Positions 244 to 20,044 of a DNA stretch of 39,266 bases are shown here, piece after piece. The stretch spans positions 1 to 39,266 of the forward strand of contig JAIQEX010000061.1 of assembly GCA_020073615.1 (NCBI GenBank). The letters run 5' to 3'. Position numbers and translations under genes: made by a program. The notes under the pieces were generated by a model, which was not told the DNA's origin, made no database searches, and was given only the letters and a program-made list of their open reading frames with translations. Source of the DNA: Terriglobia bacterium (GTDB lineage Bacteria > Acidobacteriota > Terriglobia > Bryobacterales > Bryobacteraceae). Position 1 is the first letter of the stretch, and each line of letters starts with the position of its first letter.

Positions 244-3200
244 TCAAGTAGCGTACATTGCGCCGCTAAATGCAATTCCAAAGTAGCCGGAGTGAAGGTA
301 GCCCGCGATATCAATCATCGGCTCGTACCCTCCCGGATACGAGGACCCAATCGGCGACAAACCGGTGTTGCCATCGACGCGATATAGACCGTCACCGCAC
401 ATGCCATAAACGTACCCGTTTTGGCCGATCGCTGGCGCGCCGCCAAACCCTCCGCAGACCGCGGAACTCCATTGGATGGGGCCTTGAGCCATCGCGGTAC
501 CGCCGACAAAGAAATAAACAGCGCCGTTGATACCGATGATCAACGAGCTTGGCGAACCCATGCCCGAAGAGATTATCATTGGGTTCTGCAGATGTTTTGT
601 ATAACGAACCAAATCCCACCCTGAAGCCCCATTCCGCTGACCAATGTAGACGTAGCCGTTGCGATCATCAATCGAAGGGCCGGTTACGGCGGTCATTGAG
701 ATGGGCGATGCGAAAGCAGAACCGTCGGGAGCTAGAGCGTAGAGGGCGGTGTTCGTCGCAAAATACAGATTGCCCTCAGCGGATATAGTCAAATCCCCCG
801 CTACGGGTGATCCTGGGTCGAACACAAGCTGGCCACCACGGGGAATAAGGGATGTCCCAACGAAAACACTCTGGCCCGTCCGTTGCGGATCATGACCGGA
901 CATCGGCCAGACACTGACAGGCGCAGCCACGGTAAAACACCACGCACTCCAGTATGCAATTTGGCCGGTTGCGTTGTCCGCATAGACACTCCATTGGTAT
1001 TGGCCCACGGGTAACGCGGGTGCTACCGTCACCTGCGTATTCGTCGTGGTAGACTGCGAGAATACCAACTGGGAGGTTGCGTTATTGTAAACCACTACGT
1101 CATAACGTGTCGTGCCCGGAACGGCATTCCAAGTAAGCATCGGTGTGGGCATAGAGAACGTCGCATTGTTTGCGGGCGACAATAGCTGCAATTTCTTGGA
1201 CAGCGGCATGTCGCCCACATTCGTTTGTTTGCCACTGACGATTGTGACCGTGTAGCCTGCCCAATCCCAATAGTCGCTGGTCGGGGCAACGGCGTAAATC
1301 ATGTAGCTCCCGGTTGGCGGATTTGCCAATGTAAATCGGCCATCGCTTCCCGTCGTGGTGCCGGCTAGCACTGGCAGTGTATAGTAATTGCCGGACTGCT
1401 TCAGTTGAACGCCAGCGCTAGCAACAGGAGATCCATTCCACGTCACGCGGCCAACAACTAGCGTGACCGATTCTATTACAACTACACTACCGGTCGCCGC
1501 CGGGCCATAAGCGCCTTTATCGTCACCAACGAACAAGCTGACATGGTGGTTTCCCTTAGGTAGGGCGCGAAAACAAGTTGGCACCGTTGATGCCTGCGAC
1601 CCATCAATGGACCAGAGCCAAGAAACGACATTTCCATCCGGGTCACTGCTATAGAGAGGCGTTGAGCCGTCAAAGGCTACAACAGCAGTTCCGCCAGCTG
1701 GAACTGTCAAAGTGAGCGGCGTCGAGCCTTCGCGAACTGCTTGGCTACCAGAGGTCATTAGAAAGCCAGCTCTTGGCGGTAAATTTGCTTTTGGAACTAA
1801 ATCAGCTACCTTCTCTACCGCAGCGACCGCATTTAGCAAATATATTGTGTTGTTGCCACCGGGATAATAGCTGTCGGTGTTACCGGTGTTTGTAGCTATC
1901 TGTTTATCAATAAGTATTCTTTTTACGTCTGAGGGCGTGAGCTGAGGGTTCACGCCCAGCATCATGCTCGCCACGCCTGCCACAAGGGGTGCCGCCCAGG
2001 ATGTTCCCGCATAACACTCGCGTGTGTACTCGCCGCCTCTCATCGCCAGGACCAGGTCTTTGCCTGGTGCATACAAATCGACATTCACACCGAAGTTCGA
2101 TGCAGCGTTCGGTTCCGCACCGGCGCAGTCAGTCCAGATCGCGCGCTGGTTGAATTCATCCGTCGCTCCGACTGCTATCACATTAGAACGCGATTGCGAA
2201 TACGAACCCGGTGATTGAATGGAGGAACTATTATCATTGCCGGCAGCCGTCACAATCAATACGCGTTGCATGTTCGCATAATCAATAGCCTTCTCAATTC
2301 CGTCCCCGGTCGCTAGGCTCAGATTGATCACACGAGCGCCCAAGTGAATTGCGTGCACTATGGCTGCTGCCACAGAAGCATCAGTGTGGTACAGCCCATG
2401 TGGTATAGTCACCTTTTCAGCAATGATCGGCGCCTGACGGTTTGTAACTAGGGCAGCCAGACTTGCGACTCCGGTTCCGTGTCCCCAGGTATCCATCGGC
2501 CAACTCCCCTCCAAACAGCGTCCTGCTACAACCGAAGCACAAAAATCTCGGCCTGGCGTAACGAATGAGAGGTAATCATGCGTGTAGTCCACACCTGTAT
2601 CGACAACCCCAATCGCCTTGGCACTCTTTCCGCCAAGTACCGACCATGCTTGTGAAGCATAAATCGCGTTGAGAAGCCACTGACTGCTAAAATCCTGGTA
2701 AAATGCGAGACTGAGCGTGCCGCCTACATAGTTCCTTTTAACCGAGCTCACTGTTGGCTGCGCTTGGAGCGCGAGTGCAGCCGAGTTCAGCAGTCCGAGG
2801 TCACATCGCGGCAAGCCAACTTGGTAAAGGCCCAATTCTGGCATCCAGCCTAGAATTGTTCCGGAAACCAACGATACTGTTTGTGTGACCAGACCCGTCG
2901 GTACACTATCGTTGAAACTCACAAGGAGTTCGTTGCAGACGACTTGCTGACCGGAGACCGGATCTAGTACAATATCGTTCTCATTGAGAAGGCTAGTAGT
3001 GATGGGGATAGGGGTCGATACGACCGGCAGACCTAGAATAGGAGAAAGCGCTCGTTGTAACTGTCCCTTGAAGGCGGCAGACACGCGTAAGTAAATATAC
3101 CCATCCGCTGATGGGCTGAACGTAAATGTGCCGCTGTAACGCCCATCGCCTGGGACGGCGTCGCCATTAATCCCCGAGTCACTTAGAACGCCTAGAGTTG

Positions 3201-3435
3201 ATAGGGTAGCACCAGGTTGGGTGACAGCTAGGAGATTGACCCCGTTTGCCAGAACGCTTTGATTCGCGCCAGGAACAACGAGGGCGCTGACAACAACGGT
3301 CGACTGGGTGCCCGGCTTGATGGCAGCCGGGCTAGCAATTGGGGACATCACAGTTTGCCCATCCAACGGATACCCTAAGAACAGAACAACTCCCATCAAG
3401 AGGGGAGTGATAATAAGTCGGCGGGACTGGAACAT
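244..3435 (-). CDS. Secreted multidomain subtilisin-like serine protease (S8)
   Basis: A 1063-residue exported S8 peptidase. Residues 1-27 look like a signal peptide. About 160-240 is a fervidolysin-type propeptide-like segment (NELLVSFNDSVPTG onward). The catalytic domain spans about 250-545 with Asp279 (GVVDTGVD), His319 (WGHGTG), oxyanion Asn400 (AAGN) and Ser479 (GTSWAAP), so it should be active. Then come a PKD-like segment (about 555-660), a carboxypeptidase-regulatory-like segment (about 665-750), an FN3-like segment (about 755-850) and a C-terminal PQQ-type propeller portion. There is no PEP-CTERM tail, so release to the surface or medium is likely. It follows the free propeptide-like gene by 44 bases and probably shares its transcript. 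The region is more AT-rich than genes beyond 6 kb. Protease identity is firm; C-terminal domain names are by appearance. Confidence 0.9.
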   Translation of the reverse strand: MFQSRRLIITPLLMGVVLFLGYPLDGQTVMSPIASPAAIKPGTQSTVVVSALVVPGANQSVLANGVNLLAVTQPGATLSTLGVLSDSGINGDAVPGDGRYSGTFTFSPSADGYIYLRVSAAFKGQLQRALSPILGLPVVSTPIPITTSLLNENDIVLDPVSGQQVVCNELLVSFNDSVPTGLVTQTVSLVSGTILGWMPELGLYQVGLPRCDLGLLNSAALALQAQPTVSSVKRNYVGGTLSLAFYQDFSSQWLLNAIYASQAWSVLGGKSAKAIGVVDTGVDYTHDYLSFVTPGRDFCASVVAGRCLEGSWPMDTWGHGTGVASLAALVTNRQAPIIAEKVTIPHGLYHTDASVAAAIVHAIHLGARVINLSLATGDGIEKAIDYANMQRVLIVTAAGNDNSSSIQSPGSYSQSRSNVIAVGATDEFNQRAIWTDCAGAEPNAASNFGVNVDLYAPGKDLVLAMRGGEYTRECYAGTSWAAPLVAGVASMMLGVNPQLTPSDVKRILIDKQIATNTGNTDSYYPGGNNTIYLLNAVAAVEKVADLVPKANLPPRAGFLMTSGSQAVREGSTPLTLTVPAGGTAVVAFDGSTPLYSSDPDGNVVSWLWSIDGSQASTVPTCFRALPKGNHHVSLFVGDDKGAYGPAATGSVVVIESVTLVVGRVTWNGSPVASAGVQLKQSGNYYTLPVLAGTTTGSDGRFTLANPPTGSYMIYAVAPTSDYWDWAGYTVTIVSGKQTNVGDMPLSKKLQLLSPANNATFSMPTPMLTWNAVPGTTRYDVVVYNNATSQLVFSQSTTTNTQVTVAPALPVGQYQWSVYADNATGQIAYWSAWCFTVAAPVSVWPMSGHDPQRTGQSVFVGTSLIPRGGQLVFDPGSPVAGDLTISAEGNLYFATNTALYALAPDGSAFASPISMTAVTGPSIDDRNGYVYIGQRNGASGWDLVRYTKHLQNPMIISSGMGSPSSLIIGINGAVYFFVGGTAMAQGPIQWSSAVCGGFGGAPAIGQNGYVYGMCGDGLYRVDGNTGLSPIGSSYPGGYEPMIDIAGYLHSGYFGIAFSGAMYAT

Positions 3436-11285: not shown

Positions 11286-12293
11286 ATGCCGGAAACGAAG
11301 ATCGAAGATGTGCCGGAATTGAAGGACCACGCCGAGCGGCTGCAATCGCTCGGTTACCGGAACACCGACCAGGTGGTAGGAGCTGCCAAGGCGGCCGGGG
11401 ATTCATTGGCCCGATATCTGAAGTTGGACGGGAAAGCGCTGGAGGCGCTGATGCGCAGCATCCCGCGGCGTCCGCAGCCCAAGGGAATTCAAGCGCCGGC
11501 GTTGCGGAAGGGTGCGCTCGGGGTGCGGCTGGACCGCGTGCCGCGGCCGCGGCGCGCGCTCATGATGTCGGCGATCGCCGCCACACCGCTGCCGCCCATG
11601 GTGAACCGGATCGCGGAAATGCGGCCGGTGCGCGATCAGGCGGAGCGGGGCACCTGCGTGGCGCACGCGGCCACGGCGGCCGCCGAGCACTACTGGCGCT
11701 CGCAGAACCAGGTGGTGGACCTCTCGCGGCAGTTCCTGTACTGGGATTGCAAGCAGCACGATGGACACCCCGACGAGGAAGGGACCTGGATCGGTGTAGC
11801 GATGCCGCAATTGCAATCCGACGGTTGCTGCCTCGAAGCCGCATGGCCCTATGTGACGACACAGGGCGCCAGCGAGGGGCAGGGCCCGGCGCCCGATGGC
11901 GCAACGGCCGCGGCCGCGCCATACAAGATCCCGTCGTTTCGCCAGCTTGCCCCGGCGTCTTTGCTCGATATTAAAGGAGAGCTGGCGCGCGGCCGGTGCG
12001 TGGCGTTTTCCATACCCGTCTACAATTCCTGGTACCAAAACGACGAAGTCGCGCGCACCGGCGAAATCGTGAATCCCATCCCCGGCGAGGAGGACGTGGG
12101 CGGACACGCGATGTGCTTCGTGGGATACCAGGACATTGCGGGCGAACCGGACCTCGGCGGCGGTAAGTTTTATCTGCGCAATAGTTGGGACAGTTACTGG
12201 GCGACCGAATCGGTGTTGGGCCAGCCCGGGTACGGAACGATACCCTACAGCTACATTGCGCGCTTCGGAAGCGAAGCGTATTCTATCGATTAG
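11286..12293 (+). CDS. Papain-family (C1) cysteine peptidase with N-terminal helical domain
   Basis: A 335-residue protein without signal peptide, so it should act in the cytoplasm. Residues 1-60 form an all-helical domain resembling DUF4332/helix-hairpin-helix modules (LQSLGYRNTDQVVGAA ... LARYLKLDGKALEAL). Residues about 105-335 are a C1 peptidase: oxyanion Gln118 and nucleophile Cys124 (VRDQAERGTCVAHA), His274 (VGGHAMCFVGYQ), Asn299 (FYLRNSWDSYW). All catalytic positions are present. There is no long propeptide; the helical domain takes that place. GGGGAGG sits about 6 bases before the ATG. It is followed after 11 bases by a small gene that resembles its N-terminal domain, and converges with a CHAT/pseudo-archaemetzincin/M4 operon. 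The substrate is unknown. Confidence 0.88.
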   Translation: MPETKIEDVPELKDHAERLQSLGYRNTDQVVGAAKAAGDSLARYLKLDGKALEALMRSIPRRPQPKGIQAPALRKGALGVRLDRVPRPRRALMMSAIAATPLPPMVNRIAEMRPVRDQAERGTCVAHAATAAAEHYWRSQNQVVDLSRQFLYWDCKQHDGHPDEEGTWIGVAMPQLQSDGCCLEAAWPYVTTQGASEGQGPAPDGATAAAAPYKIPSFRQLAPASLLDIKGELARGRCVAFSIPVYNSWYQNDEVARTGEIVNPIPGEEDVGGHAMCFVGYQDIAGEPDLGGGKFYLRNSWDSYWATESVLGQPGYGTIPYSYIARFGSEAYSID

Positions 12294-12304
12294 GAGTAGC
12301 TGAA

Positions 12305-12583
12305 GTGCCGGCGGAGTTCTTGAAGAATCTTCCGATAGGCGAAGAGGAACGCGCCAAGCTGTCCGAGTTCGGCGCGGCGACTCCGCTGGCGCTGCTGGCC
12401 ATGCGCAAGGCCTCGAAGGACGCCTTCGACAGTTACTTAGGCCGGGATCGCGCCGACGCGATCGCCTGCGAGCTGGAGAAGTTGCTGACGCCCGGCGAGG
12501 CCGAATCCCTGAAGCAGCCAATCAAGAGTGTGGGCCGATTCGGGGCCCGTCTCGATCCTCTGCCTACGGCCTCGAAGGGGTGA
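12305..12583 (+). CDS. Small helical protein resembling the C1 peptidase N-terminal domain
   Basis: A 92-residue, all-helical protein without signal peptide or membrane segment. Starting at GTG 12305, with AGGAG about 10 bases upstream, it follows the C1 gene by 11 bases. Residues about 17-50 align without gaps to residues 18-51 of the C1 peptidase: a K/R-L pair, an F/L-G step, K-A, D, then YL..D at matching positions. This suggests the same helix-hairpin-helix-like domain as a free unit. The C-terminal 30 residues are polar and probably disordered. It overlaps the end of the convergent CHAT gene by 20 bases. A role as an adaptor or regulator binding the peptidase through like domains is inference. 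Confidence 0.7.
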   Translation: MPAEFLKNLPIGEEERAKLSEFGAATPLALLAMRKASKDAFDSYLGRDRADAIACELEKLLTPGEAESLKQPIKSVGRFGARLDPLPTASKG

Positions 12584-13805
12584 GGATCGTTTTGGAAACC
12601 GCGGCGCGAATGAACAGCCGCGGATCGCCGTAGAAGGTGTACGAGGCCCAGCCCAGGTCATCGGGGTAGTCCGGGTTGCGCACCTGGCGGCGCGCTTCGC
12701 GCGTCGCGAAGCCGAGCGAGTTCCCCTCGAGAAAGCACTGATAGAATCGGCTGGCGAAGGAGGCGGCGGTGTCGTCCTCGATCTCCCAGGTGCTTCCCAA
12801 CAGGTACGAGCCGGTGTCGAGAATCGCGCTGCCGAGTCCGTATAAATTGTATTGGCCCTTCCAGCCGCTGCCGGCGATGCGCGTGGTCTGACAACCGTTC
12901 AGGAAACAAAACACCGGCGGGTGCGCGCCGAGCATGCCGCTCAACTGCGCGGTGGTGAGCAACCGGTCCTGCAGGACGATTCCGCTGCTCTTGATATCGT
13001 CGGGATTCGACACGGCGTGGCCGCTGTAATGCACGATGTCGTACACGCCATCCTGCAGCTTATCGAAGACCGCCATCAAGGTTGCGTCCTCGACAACTTC
13101 CAGTTGCACGAATGGAATGTGAGCGAGGGTTTCGGAAACGGCCTCGGTCTCGGCGATGGCGCCGGTGAGCTTGCGGTATTCGACGGCGTTCCCGTCCTTG
13201 TCCTTGAGGACGTTACCGCTCCTGTCTTTGGGGTGCGGCTCGGGCACGCTGATCACCAGGATGCGCAGTTTCTCGAGTTCGACGCCGTACACGGGCGCGA
13301 CCCGCTGCTGAGCGGCGATCCGCGATTCCGACAGATTGACAAAGCGGCCGACAAAATTGCTGGCGCAAAGGAAATCGTTGCCATCGTAAATCAGTTCCCA
13401 AGGGAGGTCGAGCAGGGCTTCGTCGGTTCCAATCTCCAGATACAGATCGCGAATCTGTAGTTCCGAGCGGATACGGGGCGGCAGAACCAGGGTGAGCAAC
13501 AACTGGCCCAGCTTCTTCAATTCGGTGTCGACTTTGCCGGGCGGAGGAGGAGGCGGCGGCGCAGCCGGCCCTCCTTTTCGCGAGCCGCCGGCCTTGAGCC
13601 AGGCGGCAACCTTATCAAGCTGGATGTAGATCGGGTCCAGATCCTGCAGCGTCTGCAGTTGTGCGTCTGCGAAAGGCGGCCGCAGAGTGGCGCGAAACGG
13701 AGGCGTATAGCGGAACTGGCTGCGCTTCGTTTCCGACGGGCCCAGGATTTCAAGCTGGCCGCTGGCGCCGGGATACCAGTCGAAGCAATACCGTTCGTCA
13801 GGCAA
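12564..13805 (-). CDS. CHAT-domain (caspase-like) protease
   Basis: A 413-residue protein without signal peptide. The N-terminal 75 residues are unrecognised (FDWYPGASGQLEI ...), followed by a poly-proline linker (about 80-90). The CHAT domain covers about 100-400: LPWELIYDGNDFL, the nucleotide-fold strand LRILVISVP, an ETEAVSETL helix, the catalytic His263 (DIVHYSGHA) and Cys305 (FCFLNGCQT), and the C-terminal FYGDPRLF. CHAT proteases are clan CD enzymes related to caspases and separase, and in bacteria commonly act in conflict or cell-death systems. The start is TTG at 13805, inside the end of the upstream gene, with AAGGATGG upstream, so translation is probably coupled. It is last in the M4/pseudo-M54/CHAT operon. 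Identity is firm; target unknown. Confidence 0.88.
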   Translation of the reverse strand: MPDERYCFDWYPGASGQLEILGPSETKRSQFRYTPPFRATLRPPFADAQLQTLQDLDPIYIQLDKVAAWLKAGGSRKGGPAAPPPPPPPGKVDTELKKLGQLLLTLVLPPRIRSELQIRDLYLEIGTDEALLDLPWELIYDGNDFLCASNFVGRFVNLSESRIAAQQRVAPVYGVELEKLRILVISVPEPHPKDRSGNVLKDKDGNAVEYRKLTGAIAETEAVSETLAHIPFVQLEVVEDATLMAVFDKLQDGVYDIVHYSGHAVSNPDDIKSSGIVLQDRLLTTAQLSGMLGAHPPVFCFLNGCQTTRIAGSGWKGQYNLYGLGSAILDTGSYLLGSTWEIEDDTAASFASRFYQCFLEGNSLGFATREARRQVRNPDYPDDLGWASYTFYGDPRLFIRAAVSKTILTPSRP

Positions 13806-14619
13806 GGGCCTGCCATCCTTTCGGTTGCGGATTCACTTCCACCGGTTGCACCGCGGCCGGGTCGCCGGATGGCACGGAGAACCCCTTTTCCGCCAGCTCC
13901 GGCAATTCGCGGTGCTCGGCGCCGAGCCGTACCATGCCGTCCAGCACTTCCGGATCGCCGGCGAGCCGATACATGTAGCAGGCCGGCTCGGGACATTGCT
14001 TGAGGCCCAGCCGTTCGCCGATGAACGCCGCGCAGGTGGCACGAAACCGCTGCTTGATCAGCGCCAGAGGATTCGCTTCCTTAATGTCCCAATACTCCGG
14101 ATCCATCGGGACCGTGGAGATGATGGCCTGATCGTCTCGCGGGCCGTACGACTTGCCGATGATGTACACAAAGCCCTCGGGCGGCGTGATTCTTTGATCC
14201 ACCACCACCAGCAGCGCCTGCTGGTCGCTCACACCGGCCGTGCTACGCACGAACTCCAGAAGCTTTTCGGGATTGACCGTGTCGACAAATTTGCCCTGCG
14301 AAGCCTCCCAGAACTTGAGCTTCTGATCCCCGAGCGGAACGGCATTCCACATGATCCCCGGAGGTTCAGTCGCTTCGCCGGTGAAGCTGCTCCAGGTCCT
14401 CTTCATAAACCTTACCAGCAGCCAGTCGCTCTCGCCAGGGCCGCGAATCGGGACATCCGAAATCAGATGGCGCGTCAGGAGGATGCGCTGCTGTCCCAGG
14501 TTATATAAGGTTTCGATTTCGCCAATCGCCGCCTGGAGCACGCGTCCGAGCCTCTGTGCCTGGCTGGGCTCGCGAAACACGAGAGCGACGCTGATGGGAA
14601 GCACAGCCGCCTCGCTCAT
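13798..14619 (-). CDS. Archaemetzincin-like (M54) pseudopeptidase, catalytic HExxH lost
   Basis: A 273-residue protein without signal peptide. Its C-terminal half matches the shape of archaemetzincins: strand ALLVVVD, FVYIIGKSYGPRDDQAIIST, DPEYW, then the helix before the zinc site. The family motif is HExxHxxGxxHC-x4-C-x-M. Here residues 198-216 read AFIGERLGLKQCPEPACYM: Gly205, Cys209, Cys214 and Met216 are kept at exact spacing, while the three zinc His and the catalytic Glu are Ala198, Phe199, Glu202 and Gln208. It should be inactive as a peptidase. The downstream CxxC of the family is also absent. It overlaps the M4 gene (ATGA) and the CHAT gene (8 bases). A scaffold, sensor or inhibitor role is inference. 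Family call is by motif only. Confidence 0.65.
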   Translation of the reverse strand: MSEAAVLPISVALVFREPSQAQRLGRVLQAAIGEIETLYNLGQQRILLTRHLISDVPIRGPGESDWLLVRFMKRTWSSFTGEATEPPGIMWNAVPLGDQKLKFWEASQGKFVDTVNPEKLLEFVRSTAGVSDQQALLVVVDQRITPPEGFVYIIGKSYGPRDDQAIISTVPMDPEYWDIKEANPLALIKQRFRATCAAFIGERLGLKQCPEPACYMYRLAGDPEVLDGMVRLGAEHRELPELAEKGFSVPSGDPAAVQPVEVNPQPKGWQALA

Positions 14620-16361
14620 GCGATTCCCACCTGCTGGTAGGCGTTCTCGATGGCCGTAAGGCGCGCCTGTTGCTCGCCGTCCGGCAGGCCGGAGAAGAAT
14701 GTCTTGGCGAAGTCGGCGATGGTGGCGCGCGCCTTCAAGAAGTCGGCTTCGGGCGGCAACCGGCACAGAGAGACGTAGTAGATGACGATGGCCTCCATCC
14801 ACCCCAGCAATAACTTCCCGGCGGCGTCGCGGGCGGTGAAGACGTCGTACGCCGCCTTGCTGTGGATGCCGCTGAGAGTATGGACGCCGCCCCAATCGTC
14901 CATGGTGGCAACAAACTGGCTGAGGTTGGTGAGCGAAGGCGCCGTCAGATCGCGCAGCGGTCCCCCGTTCTGGCCCAGTCCGGAGCCGATCTGCCAGCTC
15001 CACTGGTCGGCCGTGCTGTTGTTCCCGAGACGGGAAACATTGTCGATGGTGACGCCGAAAAGGTCGGCGAACGATTCATCGAGCGCGCCGGACTGGCCCC
15101 AGTATTTGAGCCCCGACGAGTATTCGGTGACTCCGTGGGTGAGCTCATGGGCGACGATGTCCAGGTGCCGGGCGTAACTCTTCAAGTTCCCCTGGCCGTC
15201 GCGGTACTGCCCATACCACATTTTGTTGTCGTACCATTGCGCCTGCTTCCATTCCGGAGCGTACCCGTCGTGCGCGGTGTTGTTCACCACCGAGACGAGC
15301 ACCATCTGTTCGTCGTCAATCCCGCTGCGCCCCAGCACCGCGCGATAAAAGGCGATCACCTTGCCGCCGTTGATGTGGGCGGAGACGGCTGCCGCGTTCG
15401 CCTGCCCGAAATTGGCGTTCCCGCAGCGCACTGCGATCTCGGGTTGGGGATGGGTATCGTAGCTCTTCATGGCATTGTCCATGGTGATGAGGCGGTGCAG
15501 CTCATCGTGCATTTCGATGCACGGGGGGGCGGCGATCCGCCTTCCGAGGAAGGCGCAGGAGGCGCCGTCTTCGTCCCGGCCATTGCAGCCGGCGGGAGCC
15601 ATTTCCCGGAGCGCCGGAGCCGAACCGTACCAGCGCAGGACGCGGCCGGTGCCGGCATCGACCAGATAGTCGAAGCGCGGCGGCATCTGGCGCGGCGACT
15701 CGCCCGTCAACTCTCCGGGTGAATTGCCGGGCGCAGCCATGGGCGGCGGGGAGGCGGGAACTTTCTGGTACAGCCAGGCCAGGCGCCACCGATCGTCTGC
15801 GCGATCGTGAACGTAGACGAGCGATCCGCGAACGGGGCCAAGCTTCTCCAGGGGGACGGTCACAAAGCCGGCCAGCGCGTGGCGGGCGTCTTCCTCCGAG
15901 AGTTTCGGCTCGCGTGGAACTTCGCTGAGATCGGCCACGTTGACGTCGGCGGAGATGAGCTTCCGGCTTTCATCGAGCTCCACCACGGCGGAGGAGCCAA
16001 ACACCGGAATCTCGCCGTGCACCTGCCGGAACCGCACGAGGCTGGTGGCCCGTCCGCTGGGCTTGCCGGTTCCGGAACCCCGGCGAACGGGATTGCGGGC
16101 CTTGTCGAACGGCCACGGAATCTCGAACGCCTTTTCCTTCGCCAGTCCGGGGACCAGTTGCGCATCGGCGGAGAGGGCGACGCCGCGCAACGACGGCCGG
16201 GTGTCCTTGCCCAGGAGCTGGTGCAGGTAATAGCGCGCGGCGTCCTCCGTGCTGCCGGACCAGATGGGCGAAGGACGAGCCTCGGCCGTTCGGCTGCGCG
16301 GTGGCTCCGCCGGTTCCGGCGATTCGGAGAAATGAAAATGCAAATTCTCGAGACCGGGCAT
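14616..16361 (-). CDS. Thermolysin-family (M4) neutral zinc metallopeptidase without export signal
   Basis: A 581-residue M4 peptidase. An FTP/PepSY-type propeptide covers about residues 60-235 (VRFRQVHGEIPVFGSSAVVELD ...), followed by a catalytic domain with VAHELTHGVTEYSSG (His405, Glu406, His409) and ALDESFADLFG (Glu429), so zinc binding is complete. The N-terminus (MPGLENLHFHFSESPEP) is polar with no signal peptide, unlike classic secreted thermolysins. I chose ATG 16361 because a TATAAT lies just upstream and because a GTG at 16430 would leave only 23 bases to the divergent helicase gene; the GTG would add 23 basic residues. It is the first gene of an overlapping operon with the pseudo-archaemetzincin and CHAT protease. 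Confidence 0.87.
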   Translation of the reverse strand: MPGLENLHFHFSESPEPAEPPRSRTAEARPSPIWSGSTEDAARYYLHQLLGKDTRPSLRGVALSADAQLVPGLAKEKAFEIPWPFDKARNPVRRGSGTGKPSGRATSLVRFRQVHGEIPVFGSSAVVELDESRKLISADVNVADLSEVPREPKLSEEDARHALAGFVTVPLEKLGPVRGSLVYVHDRADDRWRLAWLYQKVPASPPPMAAPGNSPGELTGESPRQMPPRFDYLVDAGTGRVLRWYGSAPALREMAPAGCNGRDEDGASCAFLGRRIAAPPCIEMHDELHRLITMDNAMKSYDTHPQPEIAVRCGNANFGQANAAAVSAHINGGKVIAFYRAVLGRSGIDDEQMVLVSVVNNTAHDGYAPEWKQAQWYDNKMWYGQYRDGQGNLKSYARHLDIVAHELTHGVTEYSSGLKYWGQSGALDESFADLFGVTIDNVSRLGNNSTADQWSWQIGSGLGQNGGPLRDLTAPSLTNLSQFVATMDDWGGVHTLSGIHSKAAYDVFTARDAAGKLLLGWMEAIVIYYVSLCRLPPEADFLKARATIADFAKTFFSGLPDGEQQARLTAIENAYQQVGIA

Positions 16362-16453: not shown

Positions 16454-19153
<2,700 letters not shown>

Positions 19154-19156
19154 TCG

Positions 19157-20044
19157 GTGGGATATTACGGTTTTGGATGGAAGCCCTATGTAACGGTAGC
19201 GGAGCGGCGGCGCAAAGCGGCGCGCGAGATGGAAAAGCGCAAGAAGCAGGGGCACGCGGTCTCGCCGGTCAGCATCCCGGACCGCATCATCGCCAGGACC
19301 TTTTGGGGCAAAGCGTGGTGCGAGAACCTGGAGCGGTACAGCGATTACGCCAACCGCCTGCCGCGCGGGCGGACCTATGTGCGCAACGGGTCGGTGATCG
19401 ATCTGCAGATCACGACCGGCGCGATCCACGCGTACGTCAGCGGCTCGGAGTTATACCAGGTGGCGCTCGAAGTGGCGCCGGTCGCAAAGGCGAAGTGGAA
19501 ATCCATCTGCAACGACTGCGCGGGCGGGATCGATTCGCTGGTCGAACTGCTGCAGGGGCGGTTGTCGGAGGGCGTGATGGAGCGGATCTGCCGGCAGGGC
19601 CACGGCCTGTTCCCATCGCCTGCGGAGATCCGCCTTTCGTGCAGTTGCCCCGACTGGGCGGACATGTGCAAGCACGTTGCGGCGGTGTTGTATGGCATCG
19701 GCGCGCGCTTCGATCACCAGCCCGAGCTGCTCTTTCGCCTGCGTGCGGTGGACGAGAAAGACCTGATCGTGCATGTGGGCAAGGGGACCCCGCTGACCAA
19801 GCAGGGACCGGCCGCCGGGAAGGTGCTGGGAGGGGAGGACTTGTCGGAGTTGTTTGGACTCGACCTGGCCGAGAGCGGCGGGGCGGGTAAAGCAGTTAAG
19901 GCAAAGCGCGCCAAGAAGGTGGTGTTGTCGCGGAAGGGTATGAGCAAGCCGCGAGTGGCGGCCGCTTCGACGCAGGGCCGGAGGAGTGCGGCGGGCGCGC
20001 GGAAGCGCGTGGGACGAGAAGAGAATAACCGGACTGACAGCTGA
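19157..20044 (+). CDS. SWIM zinc-finger protein
   Basis: A 295-residue protein starting at GTG 19157, 3 bases after the SNF2 stop, so it is in the same operon. The SWIM motif is at 162-173: CSCPDWADMCKH, with Cys162, Cys164, Cys171 and His173 as zinc ligands. The N-terminal region has the typical opening GYYGFGWKPYVTVAERRRKA and the segment FWGKAWCENLERYSDY. SWIM domains bind DNA or protein and this kind is commonly paired with SNF2 ATPases. The C-terminus is a long basic Ala/Lys/Arg tail that may bind nucleic acid. Nucleotides from about 19699 to 19915 are repeated at 21514-21730. Confidence 0.88.
   Translation: MGYYGFGWKPYVTVAERRRKAAREMEKRKKQGHAVSPVSIPDRIIARTFWGKAWCENLERYSDYANRLPRGRTYVRNGSVIDLQITTGAIHAYVSGSELYQVALEVAPVAKAKWKSICNDCAGGIDSLVELLQGRLSEGVMERICRQGHGLFPSPAEIRLSCSCPDWADMCKHVAAVLYGIGARFDHQPELLFRLRAVDEKDLIVHVGKGTPLTKQGPAAGKVLGGEDLSELFGLDLAESGGAGKAVKAKRAKKVVLSRKGMSKPRVAAASTQGRRSAAGARKRVGREENNRTDS
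19699..19915 (+). repeat. 3' part of SWIM gene, repeated at 21514-21730
   Basis: About 215 bases beginning CGGCGCGCGCTTCGATCACC and ending in the codons for AVKAKRA are nearly identical to 21514-21730 in the same orientation. Most differences are silent or conservative (Lys to Arg, Glu-Leu to Gln-Met). The copies are about 1.8 kb apart and bracket the M15/lipoprotein cassette. Confidence 0.9.

Follow-up and report, generated by a model that had tools for sequence, protein, structure and literature searches.

A cysteine peptidase of family C1 in a Terriglobia bacterium is encoded in a conserved gene pair with a small protein resembling the peptidase's own N-terminal domain

A 39,266-nucleotide stretch of DNA from a Terriglobia bacterium of the family Bryobacteraceae (assembly GCA_020073615.1, contig JAIQEX010000061.1, positions 1 to 39,266; hereafter the window), part of a 6.96-Mb draft genome in 252 contigs, carries five tightly packed genes at positions 11286-16361. 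These specify a papain-type C1 peptidase, a protein of 92 residues, a CHAT protease, an archaemetzincin-like protein that has lost its zinc ligands, and a peptidase of family M4. A first-pass annotation of the sequence had described this set and suggested that it could be a proteolytic cascade or defense module. Open reading frames, Pfam matches and sequence motifs confirmed the five genes with refined coordinates, and the pairing of the C1 and small genes proved to be conserved in five of five genomes, whereas the set of five was seen at no other locus examined. The unit that holds up is therefore smaller than the set of five, namely a two-gene operon that specifies the C1 peptidase and its 92-residue neighbor. 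The pair is best explained as a C1 zymogen with a propeptide-like inhibitor that would act in trans, as in the SpeB/Spi system but in another peptidase family, although the likelihood assigned to this explanation falls just short of an even chance. The features of the pair are as follows.

11286-12293, plus strand: C1 (papain family) peptidase, 335 residues, no signal-like N-terminus (Pfam PF00112, relative of 3OIS, catalytic residues, hydropathy, orthologues)
11286-11560, plus strand: N-terminal domain of the C1 peptidase plus tail (no Pfam match; helices in the predicted model)
12305-12583, plus strand: probable stand-alone copy of the C1 N-terminal domain, 92 residues, GTG start; proposed inhibitor or partner (blastp, hhalign, orthologues, codon variation)

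PF00112 (E = 2e-13) was the sole Pfam family matched by the C1 peptidase. The nearest solved structure was 3OIS (profile E = 9e-26, profile positions 97-328), which is entered in the database as 'Cysteine protease' and which we take to be xylellain; in the xylellain structure an N-terminal part reportedly lies over the active site. The catalytic residues Q118, C124, H274 and N299 are present, and the Gln, Cys, His and Asn motifs of the papain fold are kept in all five orthologues described below. A predicted helical N-terminal domain (residues 1 to ~60) and a tail with the sequence LGVRLDRVPR (residues 78-87) precede the catalytic domain. The N-terminal domain had no Pfam match at E up to 1. 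In the AlphaFold model its helices were placed at residues 16-21, 27-36, 38-44 and 49-58, with predicted local distance difference test (pLDDT) values of 62-81 over residues 1-60.

Orthologues of the C1 peptidase were found at four other loci, L100, L101, L102 and L153, the last of which is from a genome of the window's own family (G885). A scan of the genome collection with short peptide patterns, which was based on a two-row alignment of the window C1 and a Priestia plasmid C1 and was not exhaustive, confirmed five loci from 42 pattern-bearing stretches, three of them full length including the N-terminal domain. The full-length orthologues are 48-59% identical to the window protein, and the values recorded for the three loci from the scan were 59% (L100), 59% (L101) and 46% (L102). 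L100 and L101 are labeled as Burkholderiales and Rhodospirillales, respectively, both from bog, and L102 as Acidobacteriia; the L101 genome also appeared among relatives of the L100 genome, so one of the two taxon labels may be loose. An orthologue of the small gene lies directly downstream of the C1 gene in all four other genomes. The gap between the two genes is 11 nucleotides in the window and 111, 14 and 0 nucleotides in L100, L101 and L102, respectively. Moreover, third codon positions of the small gene were the most variable in all ten pairwise comparisons of its orthologues.

The association was specific to C1 peptidases that bear the additional domain. Among 99 C1-bearing loci collected with a profile (repeats included), the ten loci with the N-terminal domain, from five genomes, all had the small gene, whereas the remaining 89 had neither the domain nor the small gene at E 1e-3; many of these 89 loci offered only ~1.5 kb of flanking sequence, some lay at contig edges and some came from repeat genomes. 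Genome searches covered samples of 101 to 299 genomes. C1 matches occurred in 33 of 297 phylum genomes, that of the window included, and only the window's own match began before residue 72. Of 299 genomes of the class, 26 gave a C1 match at E 1e-20, but just two of these matches, in the window's genome and in G885, were full length. At E 1e-10, matches to C1 were present in 17 of 195 relatives of the L100 genome and in 25 of 200 relatives of the L102 genome, none of which supplied a new full-length orthologue. In viral contigs, no relative of C1 was confirmed among 29 pattern-bearing stretches and none of the small protein among 116, and searches of phages gave two distant C1 matches. C1 matches were found in 15 plasmid records, all at <60% identity. 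The best of these, on a Priestia megaterium plasmid (L097, 4965-6159), has behind it a gene whose annotation is I42 protease inhibitor, so that inhibitor genes can evidently accompany C1 peptidases of this type. At L100 (7340-9832) and L101 (4188-7175), the gene directly upstream of C1 specifies a large protein that contains hydrophobic stretches and matched nothing in Pfam; the two proteins are 44% identical over 771 residues.

The small helical protein had been listed in the first-pass annotation as a component apart from the peptidases, but sequence comparisons revealed that it resembles the N-terminal domain of the C1 enzyme. In a single blastp comparison with composition adjustment off, it aligned end to end with C1 residues 1-87 (E = 2e-6, 22% identity over 87 residues). 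Single comparisons with phmmer and with hhalign, the latter a profile-profile alignment against the N-terminal domain, gave E = 8.8e-6 and E = 6.7e-6 (probability 85), respectively. Among the frames of L153, the small protein matched a profile of the C1 N-terminal domains of the other four genomes with E = 2.9e-5. Controls comprised 10,000 shuffles in each direction, with scores reported for 9,530 and 9,528 of them. The profile of N-terminal domains scored the five small proteins at 26.8, 15.8, 8.9, 8.1 and 4.2 bits compared with 10.2 bits for the best shuffle, and the small-protein profile scored the five N-terminal domains at 16.3, 15.0, 14.9, 5.6 and 4.1 bits compared with 12.6 bits for the best shuffle. 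Two of five scores therefore exceeded the best shuffle in one direction and three of five in the other. The small-protein profile peaked at 9.8 bits in 3,580 background windows. The shuffle and background controls were passed only in part. The kinship is therefore considered probable but old, and the small protein is probably a much diverged copy, encoded on its own, of the N-terminal domain of C1. The AlphaFold model of the small protein (pLDDT 75 overall) has six helices and a low-confidence tail, and its predicted helices fall at places similar to those in C1 residues 1-60. The protein had no match in Pfam, NCBIfam, PADLOC or PHROGs, and a search by sequence for relatives with solved structures returned none that was convincing (best E = 0.17).

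The likeness extends into the tail. The sequence GARL occurs in the tail of all five small proteins, within FGARL in the window copy, and the matching C1 tails before the catalytic domain read LGVRL, LGARI, LGVRL, LGAAL and LGVDL in the five orthologues. In a profile alignment, 14 C1 loci that lack the additional domain (repeats included) reach the tail position: eight possess a GWxPDxPDxRD-like segment, and L133, L032 and L141 read LGARL, LGLRL and LGRKV, respectively. As these domain-less relatives also carry a segment at this position, the tail appears to go back to a pre-catalytic segment ancestral to these C1 enzymes, which the small protein has kept. Ahead of its catalytic domain, the C1 peptidase at L133 (614-1549), which has no additional domain, reads LGARLSTAPRP, a sequence that closely resembles the tail found in the pair.

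Export was assessed with a crude hydropathy scan, which takes the best 17-residue window at the N-terminus. Values were 0.39 for C1, 1.06 for the small protein, 0.13 for CHAT, 1.18 for the archaemetzincin-like protein and -0.51 for M4, compared with 1.74 and 2.06 for two window genes taken as exported. No N-terminus among the five is as hydrophobic as those of the two references; the archaemetzincin-like protein is nearest and least clear. On hydropathy the five proteins therefore appear to lack export signals, as had been noted at first pass.

Control of a zymogen by an inhibitor is favored because the domain and tail of C1 have the layout of a propeptide, and the free copy specified by the next gene has that of a propeptide analogue. 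C1 would be made in the cytoplasm as a zymogen-like protein in which the helical N-terminal domain and tail, directly before the catalytic domain, take the position of a C1 propeptide. The downstream gene would provide a like domain with its tail as a separate protein. Docked on the catalytic domain where the cis domain would otherwise sit, this protein would keep the protease off until it was removed or outcompeted.

The closest parallel is SpeB/Spi, in which, according to excerpts from PMC2873492, Spi is a propeptide analogue encoded beside SpeB. In both cases the gene directly behind that of a cysteine peptidase is small, and its product is similar to the pro-region at the N-terminus of that peptidase. 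However, SpeB is a C10 peptidase, whereas the window enzyme matched only C1 (PF00112) in Pfam, has no signal-like N-terminus and carries a helical putative prodomain without a Pfam match; inhibition is a proposal in the present case. The C1 pair may thus work like SpeB/Spi but is not a member of that C10 system. The catalytic domain is of the xylellain type (3OIS), to which the window C1 adds the N-terminal domain and the partner gene that are absent at the 89 other C1 loci. CTLA-2, BCPI and crammer are stand-alone propeptide inhibitors of the I29 type, and to our knowledge the I29 fold is the one used where a C1 zymogen has a separable propeptide inhibitor. The concept of inhibiting C1 enzymes with a separate propeptide is common to these proteins and the proposed mechanism of the pair, but the pair shows no I29 match and its small protein is encoded as the partner of one protease. 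Emfourin is described in excerpts from PMC9505478 as an inhibitor in the protealysin operon, an arrangement of intracellular peptidase and inhibitor that is comparable to the one proposed here, and the window M4 likewise lacks a signal-like N-terminus by hydropathy. The inhibitor-like gene in the window accompanies C1 instead of M4, however, and the overlapping operon partners of M4 are the archaemetzincin-like and CHAT genes (no search was aimed at emfourin). In malaria parasites, a subtilisin propeptide-like inhibitor occurs as a free-standing protein according to excerpts from PMC6993865. The pairing of a cysteine protease with a propeptide-like partner is a known kind of system; what differs here is the family of the peptidase, the domain itself and the apparently cytoplasmic location. 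Open-licence full texts yielded no description of the C1/small-gene pair or, in agreement with the first-pass annotation, of the five-gene composition, and titles in the open-licence literature revealed no bacterial case of a C1 peptidase with a propeptide-like inhibitor.

The three remaining genes comprise a separate operon on the minus strand that is convergent with the C1 pair and was found only in this genome.

12564-13805, minus strand: CHAT (caspase-like) protease, 413 residues, TTG start (Pfam PF12770, HYSGHA, NGCQT)
13798-14619, minus strand: pseudo-archaemetzincin (M54-like), 273 residues, zinc ligands and catalytic Glu lost (NCBIfam NF033823, alignment with the G015 domain)
14616-16361, minus strand: M4 (thermolysin-like) peptidase, 581 residues, partial FTP propeptide, no signal-like N-terminus (Pfam PF01447, PF02868, hydropathy)

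The M4 and pseudo-M54 genes overlap by 4 nucleotides, the pseudo-M54 and CHAT genes by 8 nucleotides, and the CHAT and small genes by 20 nucleotides tail to tail, which bears out the annotated layout of one overlapping operon that runs head-on into the C1 pair.

The CHAT protein matched PF12770 strongly (E = 1.9e-31, 110 bits versus a cut-off of 24), and its translation contains HYSGHA and NGCQT, with the His and Cys residues, respectively. Weak matches were recorded to HetF in NCBIfam (E = 7.5e-6) and, partially, to BovA in PADLOC (E = 3.6e-5), and a search by sequence for solved structures gave one unrelated match (E = 0.037). CHAT domains were present in 108 of 297 phylum genomes, most among the matches listed being in much larger frames, and in eight plasmid records. 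On two rhizobial plasmids CHAT genes stand beside TIR, S8 or caspase genes; by annotation, the neighbors of the CHAT gene on Ti plasmid pTiCFBP5877 (L157) are S8 peptidases, a protein with a TIR domain and one of the caspase family. These loci resemble the window in the placement of CHAT beside other peptidases, but the partners here are M4 and pseudo-M54, and no TIR, STAND, MoxR or vWA family was found among the Pfam matches of 24 window proteins.

The pseudo-M54 protein matched NCBIfam NF033823 (archaemetzincin) at E = 1.8e-5 and 24.8 bits, below the cut-off of 145, and had no Pfam match. Alignment with the intact archaemetzincin domain of G015, a genome of the same family, showed A, E and Q in place of the three zinc-binding His residues and F in place of the catalytic Glu: the HExxHxxGxxHC zinc site is lost and CPxPxCxM is kept. 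Membership of the Myxo_non_zincin family was rejected, with no match to NF033824 at E up to 1. Two of 101 genomes gave matches, namely the protein itself and, weakly, the intact archaemetzincin of G015. No relative was encoded in 80 pattern-bearing stretches from a pattern-based, non-exhaustive scan or in plasmids, and a search by sequence for solved structures returned mostly WD40 noise together with the zinc-dependent peptidase 3lmc at E = 0.37.

The M4 peptidase matched PF01447 (E = 1.1e-21) and PF02868 (E = 5.1e-27), and its translation includes HELTH. Its propeptide scored marginally against PF07504 (E = 3.6e-4, 20.8 bits versus a cut-off of 21), and the N-terminus was not signal-like by hydropathy even with a longer GTG start. 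M4 matches were present in 92 of 297 phylum genomes, the window's own included, and in 19 plasmid records. The only near-full-length relative among the matches listed was in G223 (35% identity, positions 98-580, E = 1.7e-64); this protein also lacks a signal-like N-terminus by hydropathy. At L083 (9207-13212) of that genome the M4 relative is followed by a Schlafen group 3 helicase, and 20 kb of the locus contained no C1, CHAT or pseudo-M54 match. One of two M4 relatives on plasmids lies near an annotated zinc metalloprotease and an M28 gene.

Beyond the five genes, an SNF2 helicase (DUF3670, 899 residues) followed by a SWIM zinc-finger gene occupies positions 16454-20044, divergent from the M4 operon. 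The helicase strongly matched ZorD and DpdE in PADLOC, which are generic matches, and no Zorya or Dpd components were detected among the other window proteins tried. Proximity to defense genes, which the first-pass annotation had offered as a check, found no backing as PADLOC identified no specific system among 16 window proteins. Four of the five genes had no match and CHAT had only the partial BovA match, whereas 11 other window proteins gave strong generic SNF2 and subtilase matches and weak matches to PDC-S62 and HEAT_CxxC_PDDEXK. Named flanking genes are ordinary (S8 subtilase, phosphoribosyltransferase, cytidylate-kinase-like, ABC transporter, hybrid histidine kinase, Mur ligase and FtsQ), and five of 19 other window proteins had no Pfam family at the limits used. 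A promoter scan found none, and terminator-like sites were near chance.

Several observations weigh against the zymogen-and-inhibitor interpretation of the C1 pair. Identity between the small protein and the C1 domain is low. With four-row profiles, the L102 small protein alone matched the N-terminal domain profile (E = 0.03), and the small-protein profile retrieved no C1 at E 0.1; three of five and two of five cross-scores, respectively, did not beat the shuffles; and C1 N-terminal domains cut at other offsets scored only 5.6-9.8 bits with the small-protein profile, level with unrelated background (9.8). The I29 domain was matched at E up to 1 by neither C1 nor the small protein in Pfam. A 14-row MAFFT alignment places the GWIPD segment opposite C1 residues 58-68 instead of the tail. 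The full-length C1 model was of low confidence (pLDDT 47) and failed for the catalytic domain, so that docking in the cleft is unsupported by it. The pair is known from only five genomes, all drafts or metagenome assemblies, and at L153 no clear start codon was seen for either gene in the sequence read. Furthermore, the fold predicted for the small protein, which resembles RAD51-type HhH domains at middling Z, would be equally compatible with an adaptor or DNA-binding role. The main rival is a homotypic adaptor pair, in which the C1 N-terminal domain and the small protein would be HhH-like interaction domains, comparable to death-like or EAD domains, and would bring the protease to a partner in common such as a complex, a nucleic acid or a signaling platform; the small protein would be an adaptor or competitor and not an active-site inhibitor. 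The all-helical model has as best neighbors the RAD51 N-terminal and Hel308 HhH-type domains, and domain pairing of this sort is recurrent in predicted bacterial conflict systems in excerpts from PMC8195603. However, the best Foldseek hit had E = 0.83, and the middling VIA-align Z values for RAD51-type HhH domains (up to 6.9; for example Z 6.8 with 2.3 Å over 61 residues) may reflect only a common arrangement of helices. The membrane protein upstream of C1 in L100 and L101 could be a platform, but neither the window nor L102 contained a relative of it at E 1e-6 (L153 was outside the comparison). In addition, the GARL tail that the small protein keeps corresponds to the pre-catalytic segment of domain-less C1 enzymes and would be superfluous for recruitment. 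The adaptor pair is regarded as clearly less likely than zymogen control, though far from negligible.

Different alternatives concern the five genes together. In a five-gene cascade or defense module, CHAT or M4 would remove the prodomain from C1 or cleave the small protein, with pseudo-M54 as a scaffold or regulator. The overlaps within the minus-strand operon and its tail-to-tail packing with the C1 pair fit this idea, as do the rhizobial CHAT neighborhoods and the occurrence of inactive zincin-like domains in predicted conflict systems (excerpts from PMC8195603). In L100, too, a TPR-CHAT gene identified by Pfam, which covered part of the genes at L100, L101 and L102 and none at L153, is convergent directly behind the small gene, where the single-sequence search had missed it; the match of its product to the window CHAT is unspecific (E = 0.05). 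Genes for a type IV secretion coupling protein and an S8 subtilase lie beside TPR-CHAT at L100 (14634-19655), and the window has an S8 subtilase at 247-3435. The first-pass annotation had staked the module on homologues of the five genes being found together in other genomes, but they occur together nowhere else searched, and a conserved five-gene module is rejected as a general unit. Single-sequence searches of 16-21 kb around the pair in the four other genomes, from which remote members could escape, found no M4 or pseudo-M54, and a genome search without a positive control found no M4 match in three of these four genomes. With ordinary named flanking genes and unspecific PADLOC matches in addition, a five-gene module is improbable. 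The two operons are instead probably unrelated and accidental neighbors, M4, pseudo-M54 and CHAT forming an operon of their own, an explanation that is compatible with zymogen control of C1 and does not compete with it. Three genomes have the pair without detected relatives of the other genes and the fourth has only a different CHAT; no M4 other than the window's own passed E 1e-30 when 298 further class genomes were searched; the M4 relative of G223 adjoins a Schlafen-type helicase; and annotations within 6 kb of the two plasmid relatives of M4 include neither CHAT nor C1. The 20-nucleotide tail-to-tail overlap is left unexplained by chance proximity, though compact genomes yield such overlaps. 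Only adjacency in this one genome ties M4, pseudo-M54 and CHAT to the C1 pair. A regulatory or conflict role of the three-gene operon is possible in view of the rhizobial CHAT neighborhoods and the inactive zincin-like domains of predicted conflict systems.

The most far-reaching version of these ideas is a new cytoplasmic switch, in which a C1 peptidase with an HhH-like zymogen module unrelated to I29 would be controlled by a free copy of the module, and proteases of the convergent CHAT/M4/pseudo-M54 operon would destroy the free copy to give an intracellular cascade in which one protease activates another; this is quite unlikely. The pseudo-M54 protein, in an operon with two active-looking proteases, is a candidate dead-peptidase regulator. 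If the favored explanation of C1 zymogen and propeptide-like partner is correct, an otherwise featureless small gene would gain a function that a simple two-protein test could address, and the pair would represent an independent invention of propeptide-in-trans control for a bacterial, apparently cytoplasmic C1 peptidase with a helical domain other than I29.

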